Part shown: positions 23,753 through 33,453 of the stretch, piece by piece | How positions within the stretch are numbered: the stretch's first letter is position 1 | Layout: every line of letters starts with the position of its first letter | Assembly: GCA_004525935.1 (NCBI GenBank) | Contig: SPBP01000001.1 | Location: 1 to 47,460, forward strand | Reading direction: 5' to 3' | Length of the DNA: 47,460 nt | Origin: Lentisphaerales bacterium | GTDB taxonomy: Bacteria > Verrucomicrobiota > Kiritimatiellia > SPBP01 | The notes under the pieces: model-generated | What the model was told of the DNA's origin: nothing | The model's database searches: none | The model's input: the letters and a program-made list of their open reading frames with translations, nothing else | Made by a program: the position numbers and the translations under genes

Positions 23753-25489
23753 ATGGCCGCCAAGAAGGGCTATAGCGAAGCAATCGGCAATATCCTCATG
23801 AAGAAGGGGATAATTAACCGTGAACAGCTTGATGCGGCGGGCGAAGACGCAAAAGGTGCGGGCATTCTTCTCGAAAAGCATCTGGTTACGAAGAGAATTG
23901 TGCCTCCGGCAGAGATGACCCTGGCCATCTCTGAGTATCTCAGAATGACTCCAATCCGGCTGGCCCATTTCACTCCCGACGATCAACTGGTCAAGCTCAT
24001 ACCCCGCGATATTCTTCTCAGGCACCTGGCCTTCCCGGTATCCCGTTGCGGAGGCAGCCTGACAATAGCTCTCGGAGATGCGTTCGATATGTTTGCACTC
24101 GACGAACTGCACACGCTTACGGGCCTCGAGGTGACTCCGTTGGTGGCCTCAGAGCAGGAAATAGCCGAAGCGCTTGAGAGGTTCTTCCCCGACGAGTCGA
24201 CTGGAACCGGAATAGAGGATATTCTCAAGGATGCCGACTCAGACCTGGAAATCGGGCATGAACCGGCGCAAGACGACGATGACAACCAGAACATTGAGAT
24301 GATGATCGAAAGCGCCGAGGGCGCACCGGTCGTACGCATGGTCAATGTGATTCTCCTGGAAGCCCTCAGGACCGGAGCAAGCGACATTCACCTGGAGCCG
24401 CAGGAGAAGGCGATCCGACTACGTTACCGCATTGACGGTTCTCTCCTGGAGAGTCCGAGCCCGCCCAAGAACCTTCAGGGAGCCGTGCTTTCCCGCATGA
24501 AGCTCATGTCCGGAATGGACATCGCGGAACGCAGGATTCCCCAAGACGGTCGCATCAAGATAAGGGCATTGGGCAAGGAAGTGGATCTTCGCGTCAATAC
24601 GTTACCTACGATCTTCGGGGAAAAAGTGGTGATGCGTATTCTCGACAGATCATCTCTTATGCCGAATCTTGCAGCGCTCGGGTTGGATGAAACCGCATAT
24701 CGCACCATGAAACACGCTATCTCCCAGCCGCACGGCATACTTCTCGTTACCGGTCCCACGGGCAGTGGAAAGACAACAACACTTTATTCCTGCTTGCAGG
24801 AGCTCAACAAACCGGAAGTCAATATCGTCACCTGTGAAGACCCGGTCGAGTATCAGCTTGAGGGAATCAACCAGGTGCAGATCAATTCGTTCGTGGGCCT
24901 GACTTTTGCCTCCGCCCTTCGATCCGTGCTGAGGCAGAGCCCCGACATCATTCTGGTGGGTGAAACACGCGACAGCGAAACGGCCGAAATCGGTGTCAAG
25001 GCGGCACTGACGGGGCACCTGGTTCTGAGCACTCTCCACACCAATGACGCTCCTGGAGCAATTACCCGCATGATCGACATGGGTGTCGAACCGTCGCTGC
25101 TCGCCTCGTCTCTGATTCTCGCCCAGGCACAGCGGTTGGTCAGGAAGCTTTGCGCCGCATGCAAGACTAAGATTAAATCCCTCCCTCTCAAGAAACTGAA
25201 GTTGTACGGAATAGATCCCAAGATCTTTGACGGTTGCACCGTGTATGAAGCCAAAGGTTGTCCCAAATGCCATGGTGGCGGCTTCAAGGGCCGACTGGCC
25301 ATCATGGAAGTGCTACGAATCGACAAGGAGATCAGAAGGGGCATCCTGAAGGGCATCAGCTCCAGGGAAATAGCTGGAATGGCCGCGAAGAAAGGGATGA
25401 TCATGCTGAGGGATATTGGCCTGCTCAAGGCGAGAGAAGGCATCACAAGCATTGACGCCGCCCTGGAAGTCACCGGCGGGAGCGAGTGA
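23753..25489 (+). CDS. pilB: PilB/GspE-type assembly ATPase (first tandem copy)
   Basis: Cytoplasmic hexameric ATPase that drives pilin polymerisation. Residues ~1-145 are the GspE N-terminal (MshEN-like) domain. The core has an ASDIHLEPQ block at ~209, Walker A GPTGSGKT (334-341), Asp box TCEDPVEYQL, Walker B DIILVGETRD, and His box STLHTND. A zinc site is formed by C467, C470, C503 and C506 (CAAC...CPKC), typical of PilB/GspE rather than PilT. ATG 23753 begins the frame. The second copy starts 12 nt after this one ends. Confidence 0.94.
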   Translation: MAAKKGYSEAIGNILMKKGIINREQLDAAGEDAKGAGILLEKHLVTKRIVPPAEMTLAISEYLRMTPIRLAHFTPDDQLVKLIPRDILLRHLAFPVSRCGGSLTIALGDAFDMFALDELHTLTGLEVTPLVASEQEIAEALERFFPDESTGTGIEDILKDADSDLEIGHEPAQDDDDNQNIEMMIESAEGAPVVRMVNVILLEALRTGASDIHLEPQEKAIRLRYRIDGSLLESPSPPKNLQGAVLSRMKLMSGMDIAERRIPQDGRIKIRALGKEVDLRVNTLPTIFGEKVVMRILDRSSLMPNLAALGLDETAYRTMKHAISQPHGILLVTGPTGSGKTTTLYSCLQELNKPEVNIVTCEDPVEYQLEGINQVQINSFVGLTFASALRSVLRQSPDIILVGETRDSETAEIGVKAALTGHLVLSTLHTNDAPGAITRMIDMGVEPSLLASSLILAQAQRLVRKLCAACKTKIKSLPLKKLKLYGIDPKIFDGCTVYEAKGCPKCHGGGFKGRLAIMEVLRIDKEIRRGILKGISSREIAGMAAKKGMIMLRDIGLLKAREGITSIDAALEVTGGSE

Positions 25490-25501
25490 GGTTACGGTCA
25501 T

Positions 25502-27223
25502 ATGGCTGATAGTTCTCAACTGGGCAAACTGTCGAGCATACTGCTGAAACGCGGTTCCATCGACACAGAGACGTTGAAATCCGCCGATGAACAGGCAACG
25601 GCAACGGGGGTCACTCTTGAGAGATACCTCCTGGCCAACGACCTCATACCTGATGATCAGGTCACTCTTGCCATTTCGGAGTACCTCGGCATCCCCCCCA
25701 TGTCTCTTGCCCATTTCGCGTTCGACGAGCAGCTCGCGGAACTCGTTCCGATTGATGTTCTGGCCCGATTCAAAGCCATACCGGTGGCACGGCTCGGCAA
25801 GATGCTGACCGTTGCGATGGGCGACCCATTTGACATCACGGCCATTGACGAGTTGCATATCATTACCGGTCTGGAAATAGCGCCGGTGGCCGCCTCCGAA
25901 GATGACATCGCAAGAATCCTGCAACGTTCGAGGGCCCAGGATGCGGACCAGCTTGATATGGAAGACATAATGAAGGGCGTAGACAGCGAGCTCGAAGTCG
26001 GAACGCAAGAAGAAGGCGACGTGCAGAGCCTCGAGGATATGAGGGACGGTGCCCAGGAGGGACCCGTCATCCGCATGGTCAACATGATTCTCATCGAATC
26101 CGTGAGACTTGCCGCAAACGACATTCACATCGAACCCCAGGAGGACTATGTCCGTCTCCGATACCGTGTGGACGGGGTCCTCATCGAGCGGCCCAACCTG
26201 CCCAAGAGTATTCAATCGGCGCTCATTTCGAGGGTAAAGATCATGGCCGACCTCGACATTGGGGAGCATCGAATACCCCAGGATGGCCGGTTCCGAATCA
26301 AGACGCTGGGCAAGGCCATCGACGTGCGAGTCAGCGTGTTGCCCACGATCCACGGCGGCAAGGTGGTCATGAGAACGCTCGACAGCAGTTCTCTCTTCCC
26401 GAGCCTCGCCGCTCTCGAACTGGAGGAACGCGCCCACAATGCTCTCGCCTACGCGATTGAACAGCCGCACGGCATTATCCTGGTAACCGGACCAACCGGC
26501 AGCGGCAAAACCACGACGCTCTACTCCTGCATCCAGGAACTCAACAAGACTGATGTGAACCTCGTAACGTGCGAGGATCCCGTCGAGTTCCAGCTTCCCG
26601 GCATCATCCAGGTCAAGATAAGCGAAGGCACTGGCTGTACCTTTGCCGCAGCGCTTCGAGCCATTCTCCGACAGGACCCCGACATTGTTCTTATTGGTGA
26701 AATCCGTGACGCAGAGAGCTGCGAGATAGCTATCAAGGCGGCGCTTACGGGCCATCTGGTTCTTACCACTTTGCACGCCAACGACGCGGCCGGAACTATA
26801 ACCCGTCTGCTTGATATGGGTATGGAACCATTCTTGCTTGCCTCTTCGATCATTTTGACCCAAGCTCAGCGGTTGTATCGGAGGCTCTGTCCCGTCTGCA
26901 AAGTTCCGGTCGAACCTGATCTGCGATTCCTGGAAGACAACGCTGTGGATCCGGCAACGCTCAGCGGTTTCACTTTATACGGTCCGAAGGGCTGCCCAAA
27001 ATGCAACAACATTGGCTTCAAAGGGCGGGCGGCCATCATGGAGGTGCTGCCGATCGACGACGAAATCAGGGCAGCAATTGTTCAGCAGCTTATGGCCGAC
27101 GAAATCAGGGAAAAGGCCATTGAGAAGGGGATGATTCCTCTCCAGACCGCCGGTCTGGAAAGAGTCAAGTCCGGCGACACAAGTTTAGAAACAGCTCTAC
27201 GGGTAACAGGCGGCGGCGAATAG
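25502..27223 (+). CDS. PilB/GspE-type assembly ATPase (second tandem copy)
   Basis: A 573 aa paralog of the preceding gene, with the same domains: an MshEN-like N-terminus, NDIHIEPQ at ~207, Walker A GPTGSGKT (330-337), TCEDPVEFQL, DIVLIGEIRD, TTLHAND, and zinc cysteines CPVC...CPKC. All catalytic motifs are intact in both copies, so neither looks like a dead duplicate. The two differ throughout, so the duplication is old. It could power a second pilus type or form mixed hexamers. It is followed after 30 nt by a PAS/DHp protein on the same strand. Confidence 0.93.
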   Translation: MADSSQLGKLSSILLKRGSIDTETLKSADEQATATGVTLERYLLANDLIPDDQVTLAISEYLGIPPMSLAHFAFDEQLAELVPIDVLARFKAIPVARLGKMLTVAMGDPFDITAIDELHIITGLEIAPVAASEDDIARILQRSRAQDADQLDMEDIMKGVDSELEVGTQEEGDVQSLEDMRDGAQEGPVIRMVNMILIESVRLAANDIHIEPQEDYVRLRYRVDGVLIERPNLPKSIQSALISRVKIMADLDIGEHRIPQDGRFRIKTLGKAIDVRVSVLPTIHGGKVVMRTLDSSSLFPSLAALELEERAHNALAYAIEQPHGIILVTGPTGSGKTTTLYSCIQELNKTDVNLVTCEDPVEFQLPGIIQVKISEGTGCTFAAALRAILRQDPDIVLIGEIRDAESCEIAIKAALTGHLVLTTLHANDAAGTITRLLDMGMEPFLLASSIILTQAQRLYRRLCPVCKVPVEPDLRFLEDNAVDPATLSGFTLYGPKGCPKCNNIGFKGRAAIMEVLPIDDEIRAAIVQQLMADEIREKAIEKGMIPLQTAGLERVKSGDTSLETALRVTGGGE

Positions 27224-27253: not shown

Positions 27254-28456
27254 GTGCAGGATCCAGGCCAAGGCGGACAGCAAGAACGGTTATCTCGTAC
27301 GATGCGCATCGACATCGCACCGGATGCCTTGACCGAGGCCGTTCCGACAGCGCCTGCCGCCAAGTCCAAACGCATCATCACAAGGCGAGCAAGAAGCCGA
27401 ATCGACGAAAAACTGAGCTCAACCGACGAGCAAATCCAAACGCAGATTGGGAGTGATGATTTCCAGGAACTCCTCCAGAGCGTCTACGATGCCGCGCTTA
27501 TAACCGATATGACCGGGAGGATTGTCGACGGCAACGTCCGCGCCATCCAGTTCTTTCTCTACGAAACTGACGAACTTCTTAAGCTGAGCATTCTCGATAT
27601 TGTCTCCGGCTCCGACGAGTCCCTTGTCACAAAGATCAGGGAGAATCTTGTAGAGCGTTTCGTACTCATCGAAGCCTGTTACTGTGCCCGCAAGAACGGA
27701 ACTTTCTTCCCAGCCGAAATCGCGGTAAACCAGTTGCCGTTATCCGGCCAGGATTTCCTGTGTTTCTTCGTCCGGGACGTGACCCTGCGCAGGCAAGCCG
27801 AAGAGAAACTACGTGTCGAGCACAACGCCATTCAGAACTCGCGAAGCGGCATTCTCATTACCGATCTGGACGCCAAGATTGTCTATACGAACCCCGCCGT
27901 TTCCGCGATGTGGAGTCACGAAGACCCCGCAGACTTCGTCGGCCGCCATGTGTCTTCCCTGTGGGAGCCGCAGGCTCAGGATGCCAACCTGCTTCAATCG
28001 GTTATCGACGAAGATGGAACCTGGATACGCGAATTCGTGGCCACCAGGGCCGACGGGTCTCAGTTCTCCGTGCAGGTCACCGCCGCCTGCAACACCGATG
28101 CCGACGGCGAGCTTACCGGCATGGTCTTTTCCCTGGTCGATTTCAGCGATCGAAAACGCGCCGACGAAGCCGAGCGCGATGCGGAACGTCGTCGCGTAAT
28201 GCTCGAGAGTCTTGGTGCAGCGTGTCATCATCTCGGGCAACCTGCGACAGTTCTGCTCGCAAATCTTGGGATAATGAAACGTCACTCCACCAAAACCGAC
28301 GAGAAGGTCCAGGAACTGGTTGGGTCCTGCCTCGAGGCAGCCGAATCCCTCGCCGCCACCCTCCACAAGCTCAATGCGACGAATGAATACCGCACAACTC
28401 CATACCTTGACGGCAGAACCGCATCCGGCAAAGAAAGCCGAATTCTCGACATCTAA
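27254..28456 (+). CDS. Two-PAS sensor with histidine-kinase-like DHp helix but no ATPase domain
   Basis: GTG 27254 has AGGAG at 27241-27245. The first PAS covers ~70-190 (ALITDMTGRIVDGN ... FLCFFVRDVTLRRQAEEKL), and the second ~195-310 (GILITDLDAKIVYTNPA ... SLVDFSDRKRADEAE). The last ~90 residues read as a dimerisation helix pair with an H-box-like SLGAACHHLGQPATVLLANL. The protein then ends at 400 aa with no N, G1 or G2 boxes, so it cannot autophosphorylate by itself. The first PAS resembles the PAS of the hybrid kinase at 13149-15284. Located right behind the two ATPases, it may signal pilus state or be phosphorylated in trans. Confidence 0.8.
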   Translation: MQDPGQGGQQERLSRTMRIDIAPDALTEAVPTAPAAKSKRIITRRARSRIDEKLSSTDEQIQTQIGSDDFQELLQSVYDAALITDMTGRIVDGNVRAIQFFLYETDELLKLSILDIVSGSDESLVTKIRENLVERFVLIEACYCARKNGTFFPAEIAVNQLPLSGQDFLCFFVRDVTLRRQAEEKLRVEHNAIQNSRSGILITDLDAKIVYTNPAVSAMWSHEDPADFVGRHVSSLWEPQAQDANLLQSVIDEDGTWIREFVATRADGSQFSVQVTAACNTDADGELTGMVFSLVDFSDRKRADEAERDAERRRVMLESLGAACHHLGQPATVLLANLGIMKRHSTKTDEKVQELVGSCLEAAESLAATLHKLNATNEYRTTPYLDGRTASGKESRILDI

Positions 28457-28560: not shown

Positions 28561-28944
28561 CTAGCTGCCCATCTTGTAATCCAGATCATGCGTTAAGTCG
28601 GTAACGATCAAACACGTAGGATCTACACCTACGGCACTGATACCGTACGAGTTACTGAAGACCCTGTCAACACCCGTCGCTGTCGGGCAGTAACACTTGT
28701 TCGTGATATCCTTCACGTACAGCGCTACATTACCCCAACTCAGGATGTCACCATTATCGCCACCGTATTCCAGCACGTATGTATCCTTGCCGCCATCAAT
28801 CTGGCGAAGGTTGTTGATACATGCATTTCGACGGGCACTGTTCCGTGCCTTCATGAACGCCGGAATAGCGATCGCGGCCAACAGGCCGATAATCGCCACC
28901 ACGATCATGATCTCTACCAGTGTGAAACCTTTTTTGCGCCTCAT
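28561..28944 (-). CDS. Type IV pilin / type II pseudopilin major subunit
   Basis: ATG 28944 (GAGGAGG just upstream) gives a 127 aa prepilin. The leader MRRKKG is short and basic, then cleavage before FTLVEIMIVVAIIGLLAAIAIPAF, with Glu at +5, the classical class III signal. The mature part has a small C-terminal domain with NACINNLRQIDGGKDTYVLEYG, a helix common in short PulG/PilA-like pilins of this kind. Two cysteines (CYC) and one later Cys could form a disulfide loop. The frame stays open upstream to 29040, but that stretch lacks a ribosome site. A strong terminator follows. No prepilin peptidase gene is in the window. Confidence 0.93.
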   Translation of the reverse strand: MRRKKGFTLVEIMIVVAIIGLLAAIAIPAFMKARNSARRNACINNLRQIDGGKDTYVLEYGGDNGDILSWGNVALYVKDITNKCYCPTATGVDRVFSNSYGISAVGVDPTCLIVTDLTHDLDYKMGS

Positions 28945-29105
28945 CTTCTCGCCTCCTCTCGTCTGTTGTTTCTCTTTCATCGTTTGCCTCTTTCTTCCTG
29001 CTCTCATCTCAACCACGCATCCCAAGGGAGCAGTATCCATGCCAACCCGTCGCTAGAGGTATCCCCTTTCGGACTTAAGATTCCCGAGCCTCTCATTTTT
29101 CGGGC

Positions 29106-29177: not shown

Positions 29178-29230
29178 TTCGCATGTATGATAATGTGCGA
29201 AACTGCGAAAATATGCCGCAAAGCTGCGAA
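29178..29230. repeat. Cluster of TGCGAA sites upstream of the pilin promoter
   Basis: Four TGCGAA hexamers occur in 53 bp: inverted at 29178-29183 and direct at 29196-29201, 29204-29209 and 29225-29230, with a related CCGCAAA between the last two. They lie 45-95 bp upstream of the predicted -35 box and just beyond the stop of the regulator gene. This could be an activator-binding region. Confidence 0.5.
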
Positions 29231-29250: not shown

Positions 29251-30654
29251 TCAGGAGGCAGGGGTGTTGCCTGCCTCGGATCCCTTGTCGGGAAGCTTCC
29301 TGTAAAGTGTTGCAAGGCTTATATCGAGCGCTTTGGCGGCCTTAACCTTGTCGCCCTTCGCATGTTTAAGCATCTGATCAACATATTCCTTCTCTTTGCT
29401 GCGCAGGAAGAGCTTCAGCGATTTCCCACGGTACTCATCATCCGTTGCTGCCACCCCGCTGCCTCTGGACTCAGCAGCTCCAGTCGCGCTGACAATATCT
29501 TCAGGAAGGTTATCGGTCGTGACAGTCGCCTCTTTCATAACGGAAACTGCGTGTTTTAGCGCATTCTCAAGCTGGCGGACGTTCCCGGGCCAGCCATAAC
29601 GCATAAGCACTTCACGAACTTTCGGTTCCAGCGACGGCAGTTCCTGCTCGCCGGCGAGATCTCTAAGGAGAATGTGGTATACAAGCGGGAGAATGTCGTC
29701 CTTCCGGTCCCGAAGCGGCTTGATTTCGATGGGAATGACGTTGATTCGTGCATAGAGGTCGGGACGAAACGTCCCTTCCTGGATCAGCCGCTGAAGATTA
29801 ACGTTCGTGCTGGCCAGGAGACGCGCATCAATCTCCGTTGCGCGCTTGCCCCCTATCCTGGTGACCGCACGATCAGACAATACTCTCATTAACTTCTCCT
29901 GCAGGCCCATAGGCATAGCCCCGATGTCTGCCAGAAACACCGTGCCACCCGCTGCCGTTTCGAAGGCCCCTTCCTTCCCCGACGACTCGCCTTCCATTGC
30001 CCCGGGGGCATAGCCGAACAATTCGGCCTCGAGCAGGCTCTCCGGCAATGAGCCACAGTTGATTTGAACAAACCCCTTCTCTTTTCTCCCGCTCTGACGA
30101 TGAATCGTCCCCGCTATCAGAGATCTCCCCGTCCCACTCTCTCCGCAGATCAGAACCGTCGCGTCTGTCATCGCAACGTGTTCGACCATCTGGCACACGT
30201 TGCGCATTGCGCTGCTCTCGGCAACAATGCTCTCGAACCTGAAAAGGGCACCCACCTGCGCCTTAAGATCAATGTTTTCTGAAAGCGCACGCTTATACTC
30301 CAACGCCCGCTCTATCGTAATGAGAAGTTCGTCGATTTTGAACGGCTTCGTGACATAATCGTACGCCCCCATCTTCAGCGCCTCTACCGCCGTTTCTATC
30401 GATCCGAACGCCGTCATCATTACGACAGCCATAGAAGGGGCGTTGTCGTGAGCCATCCTCAGCAGCTCCATGCCTGAAACCGGGCTCATTCGGATATCCG
30501 ACAACATAAGGTCAAACTCCTCAGACTTGAGAATCTCGACAGCCTCCTCGCCGTTCTGGAACGTTGTTACAGTGTAACCCTCGACACTCAGCAACGTCTT
30601 AAGAACACTGAGAATACTGGCCTCGTCATCAACGAGAAGGATTTTGGCGCTCAT
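29251..30654 (-). CDS. NtrC-family response regulator with degenerate AAA+ domain
   Basis: A 467 aa regulator. The receiver (1-120) is intact, with VDDE, acceptor D53 (MLSDIRMSP) and K103. The central domain aligns with sigma-54 activators but has lost key motifs. Walker A is GESGTGRS (171-178), with Arg in place of the catalytic Lys. The GAFTGA loop is GAMEGE (218-223). Walker B is TVFLADI in place of LFLDEI. The arginine-finger region (FRPDLYARINV) and the GWPGNVRQLENAL segment remain. A Fis-type helix-turn-helix closes the protein (KAAKALDISLATLYRKL). It probably binds DNA without opening sigma-54 promoters by ATP hydrolysis. The pilin gene lies downstream on the same strand. Confidence 0.85.
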   Translation of the reverse strand: MSAKILLVDDEASILSVLKTLLSVEGYTVTTFQNGEEAVEILKSEEFDLMLSDIRMSPVSGMELLRMAHDNAPSMAVVMMTAFGSIETAVEALKMGAYDYVTKPFKIDELLITIERALEYKRALSENIDLKAQVGALFRFESIVAESSAMRNVCQMVEHVAMTDATVLICGESGTGRSLIAGTIHRQSGRKEKGFVQINCGSLPESLLEAELFGYAPGAMEGESSGKEGAFETAAGGTVFLADIGAMPMGLQEKLMRVLSDRAVTRIGGKRATEIDARLLASTNVNLQRLIQEGTFRPDLYARINVIPIEIKPLRDRKDDILPLVYHILLRDLAGEQELPSLEPKVREVLMRYGWPGNVRQLENALKHAVSVMKEATVTTDNLPEDIVSATGAAESRGSGVAATDDEYRGKSLKLFLRSKEKEYVDQMLKHAKGDKVKAAKALDISLATLYRKLPDKGSEAGNTPAS

Positions 30655-31133
30655 GCAAGGACACCTTCCATAAACCTCGAAAATACGCTTCGGTGTCTTC
30701 CCTGTAAAGGGCGATCTTTCTCATTTTCAATAAACACCTGTGATTGTGCGGGTACAGTAAGGCACCATCCCACCTTCGATGGCCTCAGGGAAATGAGGTC
30801 CGTTCGGTTATGGGATATTGAGAGTTTCAAGGTCAACTGGCGAGGGACAGGTAGCAAGCAGTATCCGCCGAACATGAGGAATATGTCCGGCGACAATCCG
30901 GTCTATTCGGTATGGAAGAAGCTGCAGAGCTCCAGACTATCCCTGATCTTCAGTGCTGTGCGCCGAAGAATCAGCCCCGCGGCCGAAGGTTGCACTCAGG
31001 TTCGCAGAACACCTGACAAGTGTGCCACAAGGAGCGCTAATGGAGCGCGTCGATGCGGAGGACATACGTCTGTGACATCCAATGACCCTCAATGGACGCC
31101 ACTGCGCACTTTGGAGGGTCGGCTTCGGCAACA
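30655..31133. other. 479-nt gap between regulator and pilC with no convincing gene
   Basis: Open frames here (for example 30793-31137 on the plus strand, ~114 codons) have no recognisable domain or ribosome site. Small dyads are present, TCAGGT...ACCTGA near 31000 and GACCCTC...GAGGGTC at 31084-31120, neither with a T-tract. The regulator promoter must lie in the left part, but no clear boxes were found. Confidence 0.5.
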
Positions 31134-32309
31134 TTAAGATGTAACGAGTTCACCCATCTTGAAGATCGGGAGAAACATACAAACCACGATGCCACCGATG
31201 ACCACGCCCAGGAATACCATCAGCAGAGGCTCAATCAGGGCCGTAAGGCCGCTCAACATGGCATCGACTTCCTCTTCATAGAAGACGGCAATGCTATCCA
31301 TCATCTCATCAATCTTACCCGTCTTCTCGCCGGCCGCCATCATATGCACCAGAATCGGGGTAAAACTCCATTCCTTGGCCAAGGCATTCGACAGCGGCTC
31401 GCCTTTCTCGACAATTTCATGGCCGCGAGCAATGGCCGCCTCGACAACCTTGTTCCCGGTCGCGCCCGAGACAATATCCAGAGCCGTTAGAATTGGAACA
31501 CCACTATGTATGAGCTGCGAAAATGTACGCGCAAATCGAGCCATGGCAACCTTCTGAACCAACCCGCCAACTACCGGGAACTTGAGCGCCATCTTGTCCA
31601 GCATCAGTTGTCCGCTCTTCGTCTTCTTCCACTTCTTGATGCCCACGGTGATCAACGCCAGTGCACCAAAGGTGACAAGGAAATTGTCCCGTATGAAATC
31701 GCTGATTGCGCAAAGAACCTTTGTCGGGGTCGGCAGGTCGCCACCGAACTGCTCGAACATATCCTTAAACACCGGCACGATGAATATCATCATCAGCACT
31801 GCGATTATTCCGGCGATGCACATGACGGCAACCGGATAACTCATGGCAGACTTGACTTTCCTGCGGAGGCGCGCGCTATTTTCGAGGAAATCGGCGATAC
31901 GAGCCATTGTCTCGGCAAGTTGCCCTCCGGACTCGCCACCACGAACCATATTTATGTAGAGTTCGTCGAAAATACTTGGAAACACCTTCAACGCCTCTGA
32001 AAAAGCCAGTCCATTCTCAATGCCCTGCTTCACCTGTCCGACGACCATCTTGAAATTGGCGTTTGCTATCTGGGAACGCAGCCCTTCGAGGGATGCGACG
32101 ATCGGCATACCTGCAGCGAGCATGGCCGCCAGCTGACGAGAAAAAGCGGGCAGCTCCTTCTTGATGATCACTTTTGCGCCCGGAATCTTCTTCCGCCGAC
32201 CACTGGCCTTGGCCGTGGCCGTGGCCCTCTTCGGCGAAGCAAGCGAGGGTGCAGATGAAGTTGCAGCGCCTCGAGACGCAGCCGCGCCTCCTCTTATAAC
32301 TGGGCTCAT
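31134..32309 (-). CDS. pilC: PilC/GspF inner-membrane platform protein
   Basis: Platform protein under the pilus that couples the ATPase to pilin. ATG 32309 (AGGGAGA upstream) is preferred over the in-frame start at 32351. After a ~45-residue Ala/Ser/Lys-rich N-terminus come two homologous T2SSF domains. The first has FSRQLAAMLAAGMPIVASLEGL and MVRGGESGGQLAETMARIADFLE; the second has FARTFSQLIHSGVPILTALDIV and HMMAAGEKTGKIDEMMDSIAVFYEEEV. Three membrane helices are visible (~155-175, ~205-225 and the C-terminal MVFLGVVIGGIVVCMFLPIF). It is separated from the ATPases by the pilin and regulator genes. Confidence 0.93.
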   Translation of the reverse strand: MSPVIRGGAAASRGAATSSAPSLASPKRATATAKASGRRKKIPGAKVIIKKELPAFSRQLAAMLAAGMPIVASLEGLRSQIANANFKMVVGQVKQGIENGLAFSEALKVFPSIFDELYINMVRGGESGGQLAETMARIADFLENSARLRRKVKSAMSYPVAVMCIAGIIAVLMMIFIVPVFKDMFEQFGGDLPTPTKVLCAISDFIRDNFLVTFGALALITVGIKKWKKTKSGQLMLDKMALKFPVVGGLVQKVAMARFARTFSQLIHSGVPILTALDIVSGATGNKVVEAAIARGHEIVEKGEPLSNALAKEWSFTPILVHMMAAGEKTGKIDEMMDSIAVFYEEEVDAMLSGLTALIEPLLMVFLGVVIGGIVVCMFLPIFKMGELVTS

Positions 32310-32394
32310 ACAAGATTCTCCCTGACCACAACTGCACCGCACGGCAGTCACTTACCTGCTCAGAATTTTGTCAGCCTGCTCCGTGATAGGCGAG

Positions 32395-32544: not shown

Positions 32545-33453
32545 ATGGCTGCAAAGCAGAAAGGCAAAGACCAAGAAGCTGAGGTGTGGAGCGCGATCGC
32601 TGCGTTCGAGCAGATTCTCGAAGCCATCCCCAACGATCGCACCTCGCTTGAGACTCTTGCCCACGCTTACGAGCAGATCGGGGACCTAACTCGCGCCAAG
32701 GACTACCTGGTGCGGCTTGCGGATGCGGTAATATCCGAATCCGACTCAGAAACTGCCGAAGAAATCAGGGCGAAGTTGGCCAATCTGGCCGCGGACGATA
32801 CGGATGCGCAGGCGGCGCTCAGCCGCATAGACACATTTCTTGCTTCGGCCCCTCAACCCACACCAAAGGCGAGCGAACCGAGCCAGAAGATCACCGCGGA
32901 GCCATCACTGTCGGAACAGGCTCCCTCAACCTCCCAGAAGATTGCCACGGAACTGGGCTCTTTCAACATAGCCAACGAGTTGCCGTTCGCCTGGAAACTC
33001 CTTCAGTCGAACGAGATAACCCAGGAAGAGTATTCAAAGCTCGTTCAAGATCTAACCGAAATGTCCCGTTCCGACGCAGCCGTCACGGTATCCGTCCTTC
33101 ATGTTCTCAATGACAGAGGTTTCAAGAATCTATACAAAGTTATCGCTTCCGTGGCAAAGGACTGCCGGACTCCACCCGTTTCGCTCGCCAACTTCGAACT
33201 TCAATCGAGCGCGTTTGCACTTCTCCCGCTGGACTACATGATCAAGCGCGGCGTCATACCGTTCGACCTCATAGGCAACGATGTCCTGAGCGTGATAATG
33301 AATCCTTATGACAAGGAATTGATGAAGGAGGTCGAAGCTGCAACCGAAAGAACATGCCACTTCTTTGTCACTGCACCCGCGGAATTCGACGCGGCAATCG
33401 ACCGGATAAGGAATTATGCAGTTGCCGGGGGTGACGAGCCTGGCTCCGAATAG
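32545..33453 (+). CDS. Stand-alone GspE N-terminal (MshEN-like) domain protein with TPR-like start
   Basis: A 302 aa soluble protein. Residues ~12-90 contain TPR-like helices (AFEQILEAIPNDRTSLETLAHAYEQIGDLTRAKDYL). A Pro/Ser/Gln-rich linker (~105-140) is followed by a C-terminal part (~150-295) that resembles the N-terminal domain of the PilB ATPases: PPVSLANFELQSSAFALLPLDYMIKRGVIPF, NDVLSVIMNPYDKELMKEVE, then a final alpha/beta segment. No Walker motifs or ATPase core follow. Such a domain could compete with or bridge to the pilus ATPases, or bind a nucleotide ligand. An AGGGG precedes the ATG. It ends with TAG 6 nt from the convergent gspB. Confidence 0.75.
   Translation: MAAKQKGKDQEAEVWSAIAAFEQILEAIPNDRTSLETLAHAYEQIGDLTRAKDYLVRLADAVISESDSETAEEIRAKLANLAADDTDAQAALSRIDTFLASAPQPTPKASEPSQKITAEPSLSEQAPSTSQKIATELGSFNIANELPFAWKLLQSNEITQEEYSKLVQDLTEMSRSDAAVTVSVLHVLNDRGFKNLYKVIASVAKDCRTPPVSLANFELQSSAFALLPLDYMIKRGVIPFDLIGNDVLSVIMNPYDKELMKEVEAATERTCHFFVTAPAEFDAAIDRIRNYAVAGGDEPGSE

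Follow-up and report, generated by a model that had tools for sequence, protein, structure and literature searches.

The window, i.e. the whole analysed stretch of 47,460 nucleotides from a Lentisphaerales bacterium, carries a type IV pilus cluster with two pilB/GspE-like ATPase genes (23753-27223, plus strand), a pilC-like gene (T2SSF; 31134-32351, minus strand) and a type IV pilin-like gene (N_methyl; 28561-28944, minus strand). Between pilC, which lies upstream and serves as synteny anchor, and the pilin gene we find the coding sequence of an NtrC-type response regulator with altered ATPase motifs, here termed P0001 (29251-30654, minus strand), an uninterrupted open reading frame of 467 amino acids. 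Gene order splits the relatives of this regulator into two groups, a pilus-linked one, which includes P0001 by its position between pilC and pilin, and a proC-linked one, to which L002, the intact paralogue described below, belongs. The orthologues that share the pilB-pilC-regulator-pilin order have every motif preserved. Judged by gene order and sequence, P0001 is the syntenic orthologue of the pilus-linked sigma-54-type response regulator. The gap between pilC and the regulator (30655-31133) spans about 480 bases compared to about 50-170 in most syntenic relatives, and is also long at locus L144. Besides, the neighbourhood contains a PAS-domain protein (27254-28456, plus strand) in which Pfam found no kinase ATPase domain; homologues of similar length at the loci L137 and L146 also lack this domain, one of them having a weak HisKA match. 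Finally, a MshEN-domain protein without a secretion ATPase domain (32545-33453, plus strand) is divergent from the pilus genes and occurs in several related loci.

P0001 has the bEBP architecture of receiver, Sigma54_activat and Fis HTH domains, with Pfam matches to Response_reg (residues 5-114), Sigma54_activat (143-310), AAA_lid_14 (315-394) and HTH_8 (417-454), all above the cut-offs. Within the receiver (30313-30642) the acceptor D53 as well as T81 and K103 are intact, and the Fis-type HTH (29293-29406) carries the recognition helix SLATLYRKL. The AAA+ core (residues 143-310; 29725-30228), on the other hand, has lost the canonical residues of i) Walker A, which reads GESGTGRS (residues 171-178; 30121-30144; K177R, E178S), ii) Walker B, where LADIG replaces LDEIG (29920-29934; D242A, E243D) within the stretch VFLADIG (residues 239-245), and iii) the sigma-54 contact loop, where GAMEGE replaces GAFTGA (residues 218-223; 29986-30003). 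The trans-acting arginine-finger motif RxDxxxR is retained as RPDLYAR (29746-29766, like all these features on the minus strand) with R297, D299 and R303, and N199, N284 and R360 are also kept. The reading frame, Pfam domains and motifs thus agree with the original prediction, which had described an NtrC-like regulator adjoining the pilin gene with three altered ATPase hallmarks, intact receiver and Fis-type DNA-binding domains and an unchanged arginine-finger region. Given these replacements, P0001 itself can very probably neither hydrolyse ATP nor contact sigma-54. The AAA+ fold is nevertheless predicted to be retained: the structure model has a mean pLDDT of 81.8 and a pTM of 0.54 with linkers of low confidence, its best Foldseek matches include NtrX, NtrC1 and FleQ, and the matches of the AAA+ domain reach a target-normalised TM of about 0.9, a model which is silent on oligomers.

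For a comparison with orthologues, we searched for P0001 in its own genome and in 56 others of the same class, 57 in total, among which its own genome alone represents the order. The column counts rest on 34 orthologues, of which 33 come from other families of the class and one is L002, an intact paralogue of the same genome; this set pools the pilus-linked and the proC-linked groups, which a tree does not separate cleanly. The class orthologues are about 50-60% identical to P0001, and all those read have intact or nearly intact motifs, with GAFTDA and GSFSGA among the variants. K177, E178, F220, A223, D242 and E243 are kept in 34/34 orthologues, and all six are replaced in P0001 (K177R, E178S, F220M, A223E, D242A, E243D); column 221 is T in 33 orthologues and S in one, with T221E in P0001. 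By sequence, these changes are more than chance variation. Altogether, P0001 differs at 19 of the 103 columns that are invariant in the 34 orthologues, while in a leave-one-out comparison every other orthologue differs at no more than four. These differences fall into the AAA+ core (17/56) and the lid (2/17), and there are none in the receiver (0/16), the linker (0/2) and the C-terminal region (0/12), together 0/30 (core versus these three regions, Fisher p = 0.0004). The mean identities show the same pattern: between P0001 and the orthologues they amount to 60.8% in the receiver and 53.1% in the C-terminal region, close to the 63.7% and 54.3% among the orthologues themselves, and to 54.6% versus 73.7% in the AAA+ domain.

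The confinement of the changes to one domain argues against plain decay, and with 0/30 invariant columns lost outside AAA+ and lid we rejected the idea that P0001 is a simple pseudogene. The constrained receiver and DNA-binding region rather point to a working regulator and not to junk, although this constraint is read from distant orthologues and the altered state is seen in one genome only. The motif changes are not shared by these orthologues, all 34 of which keep the motifs. The original prediction had held that intact motifs in close orthologues would indicate a decaying allele; the orthologues do keep the motifs, though they come from other families at the moderate identity given above, but the conclusion of a decaying allele does not follow because none of the invariant columns in receiver and DNA-binding region is lost.

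Upstream of the pilin gene, 85 bases before its ATG, lies a sigma-54 type -24/-12 promoter, TGGCATGGATACTGCT (29029-29044, minus strand). Using a PWM built from the sites of 13 relatives with the window left out, this site scores 19.8, the next best one -1.8, and none of 3000 shuffles reaches 19.8; the PWM leans to the sigma-54 consensus since its 13 sites were picked by consensus score. Sigma-54 sites upstream of pilin are present in most relatives having a pilin gene within 1500 bases after the regulator, and the distance of the promoter is 66-117 bases in 10 of the 13 PWM loci and larger in three. A linked array of four TTCGCA/TGCGAA sites, 139-186 bases upstream of the promoter (29178-29230, minus strand), forms a candidate enhancer, with 4 sites of the TTCGCA type in the window versus 0.34 expected. 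Among all 6-mers upstream of the promoters of 15 loci including the window, TTCTCA ranks first and TTCGCA third in over-representation. Both its place and its relatives support the sigma-54 site of the window. The sigma-70-like pilin promoter of the original prediction did not hold up: apart from the strong sigma-54 site, the sigma-70-like site at 29135-29106 belongs to 2 matches in the scanned stretch versus 1.6 +/- 1.3 expected, i.e. chance level, and was rejected as the promoter. Genome-wide, the sigma-54 pattern gives 15 matches versus 10 for a reversed control, so that single matches elsewhere mean little; three of them share contigs with other bEBP genes (L213, L216 and L224 on contigs C3, C43 and C289).

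The genome encodes an intact rpoN (open frame, 482 amino acids), the presence of which had been raised as a check, and ten further bEBP-like genes above 100 bits besides P0001. One of these, L002, has intact motifs and is alone among the other bEBPs of the genome in carrying the recognition helix SLATLYRKL, as would be looked for in a hetero-oligomeric bEBP pair. It is located on another contig adjoining proC, and no pilus machinery gene was recognised beside it, which speaks against a joint role with P0001. A second, more degenerate bEBP-like paralogue of 381 amino acids, L011 (also L140; G000:C313:17264-18409), has GERGTGRG as Walker A and a changed Walker B, and lacks GAFTGA, RxDxxxR and the HTH. 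At otherwise invariant columns, L011 and P0001 have six identical replacements in common (K177R, A183T, A202S, S210A, A282S, E361Q), and L011 groups with P0001 in trees with a support of 96/97 with the motifs and 82/85 with the motifs masked, albeit on a long branch. Both probably descend from a common degenerate ancestor, though this falls short of proof because some of the shared replacements are of common kinds; if it holds, the degenerate state outlasted a duplication. Taken together, one part of the proposed selection for a non-hydrolysing, sigma-54-independent regulator stands, as ATPase activity and sigma-54 contact are very probably lost while the ends are constrained. That control has left sigma-54 is unsupported, because rpoN is intact, the -24/-12 element and the upstream sites of pilin are kept, and the intact L002 shares the recognition helix.

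Similar cases were sought with the DNA pattern GGNGARWSNGGNACNGGNMGN, a Walker A with R or S replacing K, which gave hits in 67 out of the 346 genomes of the class. Reading the 66 matches retrieved outside the window revealed no bEBP frame, and every match left unread carries TGN (C, W or stop) in the third codon. The pattern misses an arginine spelled CGN at position 3, the case of L011, along with other variants, so that its coverage is incomplete. VfmH, considered as a degenerate bEBP, was rejected as it keeps its ATPase motifs. Literature searches on pseudo-ATPase response regulators and on sigma-54 control of pilin in Verrucomicrobiota or Kiritimatiellota yielded nothing useful.

A lost motor together with retained receiver and DNA-binding ends and a retained sigma-54 pilin promoter suggests that P0001 modulates its intact sister. 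We give an even chance to the reading that P0001, itself ATPase-dead, modulates L002 at the pilin enhancer, be it as a subunit or as a competitor; here we infer enhancer binding, mixed oligomers, the sign of the effect and its dependence on D53. P0001, gated by phosphorylation of D53, would still bind the pilin enhancer and act there on L002, either by joining the L002 ring as a subunit or by competing for the sites. Inside a ring, it would offer its arginine fingers while lacking its own active site. Pilin transcription would then depend on ATP hydrolysis by L002, and P0001 would tune it, more probably as a brake. The more specific version, in which a receiver subunit naturally dead for ATPase and sigma-54 contact has become the phosphorylation-gated partner of an intact paralogue and two-component input reaches the sigma-54 pilin promoter via a mixed ring, is only tentatively proposed. 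In PspF, ATPase activity returns when Walker B (cis) variants are combined with R-finger (trans) variants (PMC3419264), and, by our own assignment of positions in the PspF numbering of that study, P0001 has lost the cis site (K177, E178, D242, E243) and kept the trans residues (R297, D299, R303). However, P0001 additionally has the Walker A change from K to R, whereas the complementation used Walker B variants. Given 17/56 changes in the core, the probability of keeping the three trans residues by chance is near 0.33 (calculated by hand), so that they support the partnership weakly. Paralogous bEBPs are known to form hetero-oligomers (PMC9542535, PMC4145663). If a mixed ring existed, it would show how a duplicated activator can lose catalysis and evolve to regulate its sister, and would provide a natural test of which ring subunits must hydrolyse ATP.

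The combination of a constrained receiver and HTH with a relaxed AAA+ domain would also result if P0001 were a DNA-binding-only response regulator without any link to L002. RegA and PrrA consist of a receiver plus a Fis HTH, and in a protein of their style the AAA+ domain, the fold of which is still predicted, might persist as a spacer or dimerisation scaffold. Since the sigma-54 promoter and the candidate enhancer are retained beside P0001 and an intact paralogue has the same recognition helix, we regard this as improbable. Slow decay is a doubtful explanation as well: L002 might have taken over the ATPase function with P0001 on its way out and its two ends merely changing more slowly, and this would fit motifs that all orthologues keep and that are lost in the P0001 lineage only, as well as the further degradation of L011 up to the loss of the HTH. 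Against it speak the intact reading frame, the absence of changes at invariant columns outside AAA+ and lid, receiver and C-terminal identities within the range of the orthologues, and, should L011 and P0001 go back to one degenerate ancestor, a state that has outlived a duplication.

Unlikely, but deserving serious attention, is the possibility that P0001, once phosphorylated, binds the upstream sites and, at a nearby sigma-70 promoter, either recruits the housekeeping polymerase or blocks it. NtrC of Caulobacter and Rhodobacter, devoid of GAFTGA, acts at sigma-70 promoters (PMC10274813), the receiver and DNA-binding region of P0001 are constrained, and a sigma-70-like site does exist near the pilin gene. 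This match is at chance level, however, in contrast to the sigma-54 promoter with its conserved position and sequence. Moreover, NtrC of Caulobacter reportedly requires ATP binding and hydrolysis (PMC10274813), which are probably absent in P0001. The reading that we prefer is an action of P0001 on L002, as subunit or competitor.

In comparison with known systems, P0001 resembles the PilR/NtrC sigma-54 activators in its domain order of receiver, AAA+, lid and Fis HTH, and its PilR/NtrC class orthologues share 50-59% identity and the pilus synteny. Among solved structures, which also include FleQ and LuxO, NtrC1 and NtrX are closest in sequence and fold. Unlike these activators, P0001 carries replacements of Walker A K, of Walker B DE and of GAFTGA. 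HrpR/HrpS, FleQ/FleT and VnfA1-3 are paralogous bEBPs that act together at sigma-54 promoters (PMC9542535, PMC4145663, PMC7057263); the consulted portions of these reports name no naturally ATPase-dead receiver-type partner, and HrpR and HrpS are described there as keeping all characteristic motifs, in contrast to P0001. Whereas bEBPs without GAFTGA are known, one which also lacks Walker A and B beside a sigma-54 promoter is not described in these three reports and PMC10274813 as far as consulted. Like NtrC of Caulobacter and Rhodobacter capsulatus (PMC10274813), P0001, as judged from its sequence, has lost GAFTGA and kept receiver and DNA binding. However, those proteins have the loop deleted and work at sigma-70 promoters (PMC10274813), while P0001 has a substituted loop, additional changes in Walker A and B and a neighbouring promoter of the sigma-54 type. 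VpsR of Vibrio cholerae, for which a similar chain exists in the PDB, is another bEBP without GAFTGA (cited in PMC10274813) and reportedly acts at sigma-70 promoters without the need of phosphorylation; P0001 differs from it by keeping the acceptor D53 together with the receiver T and K, and by its neighbouring promoter of the sigma-54 type.
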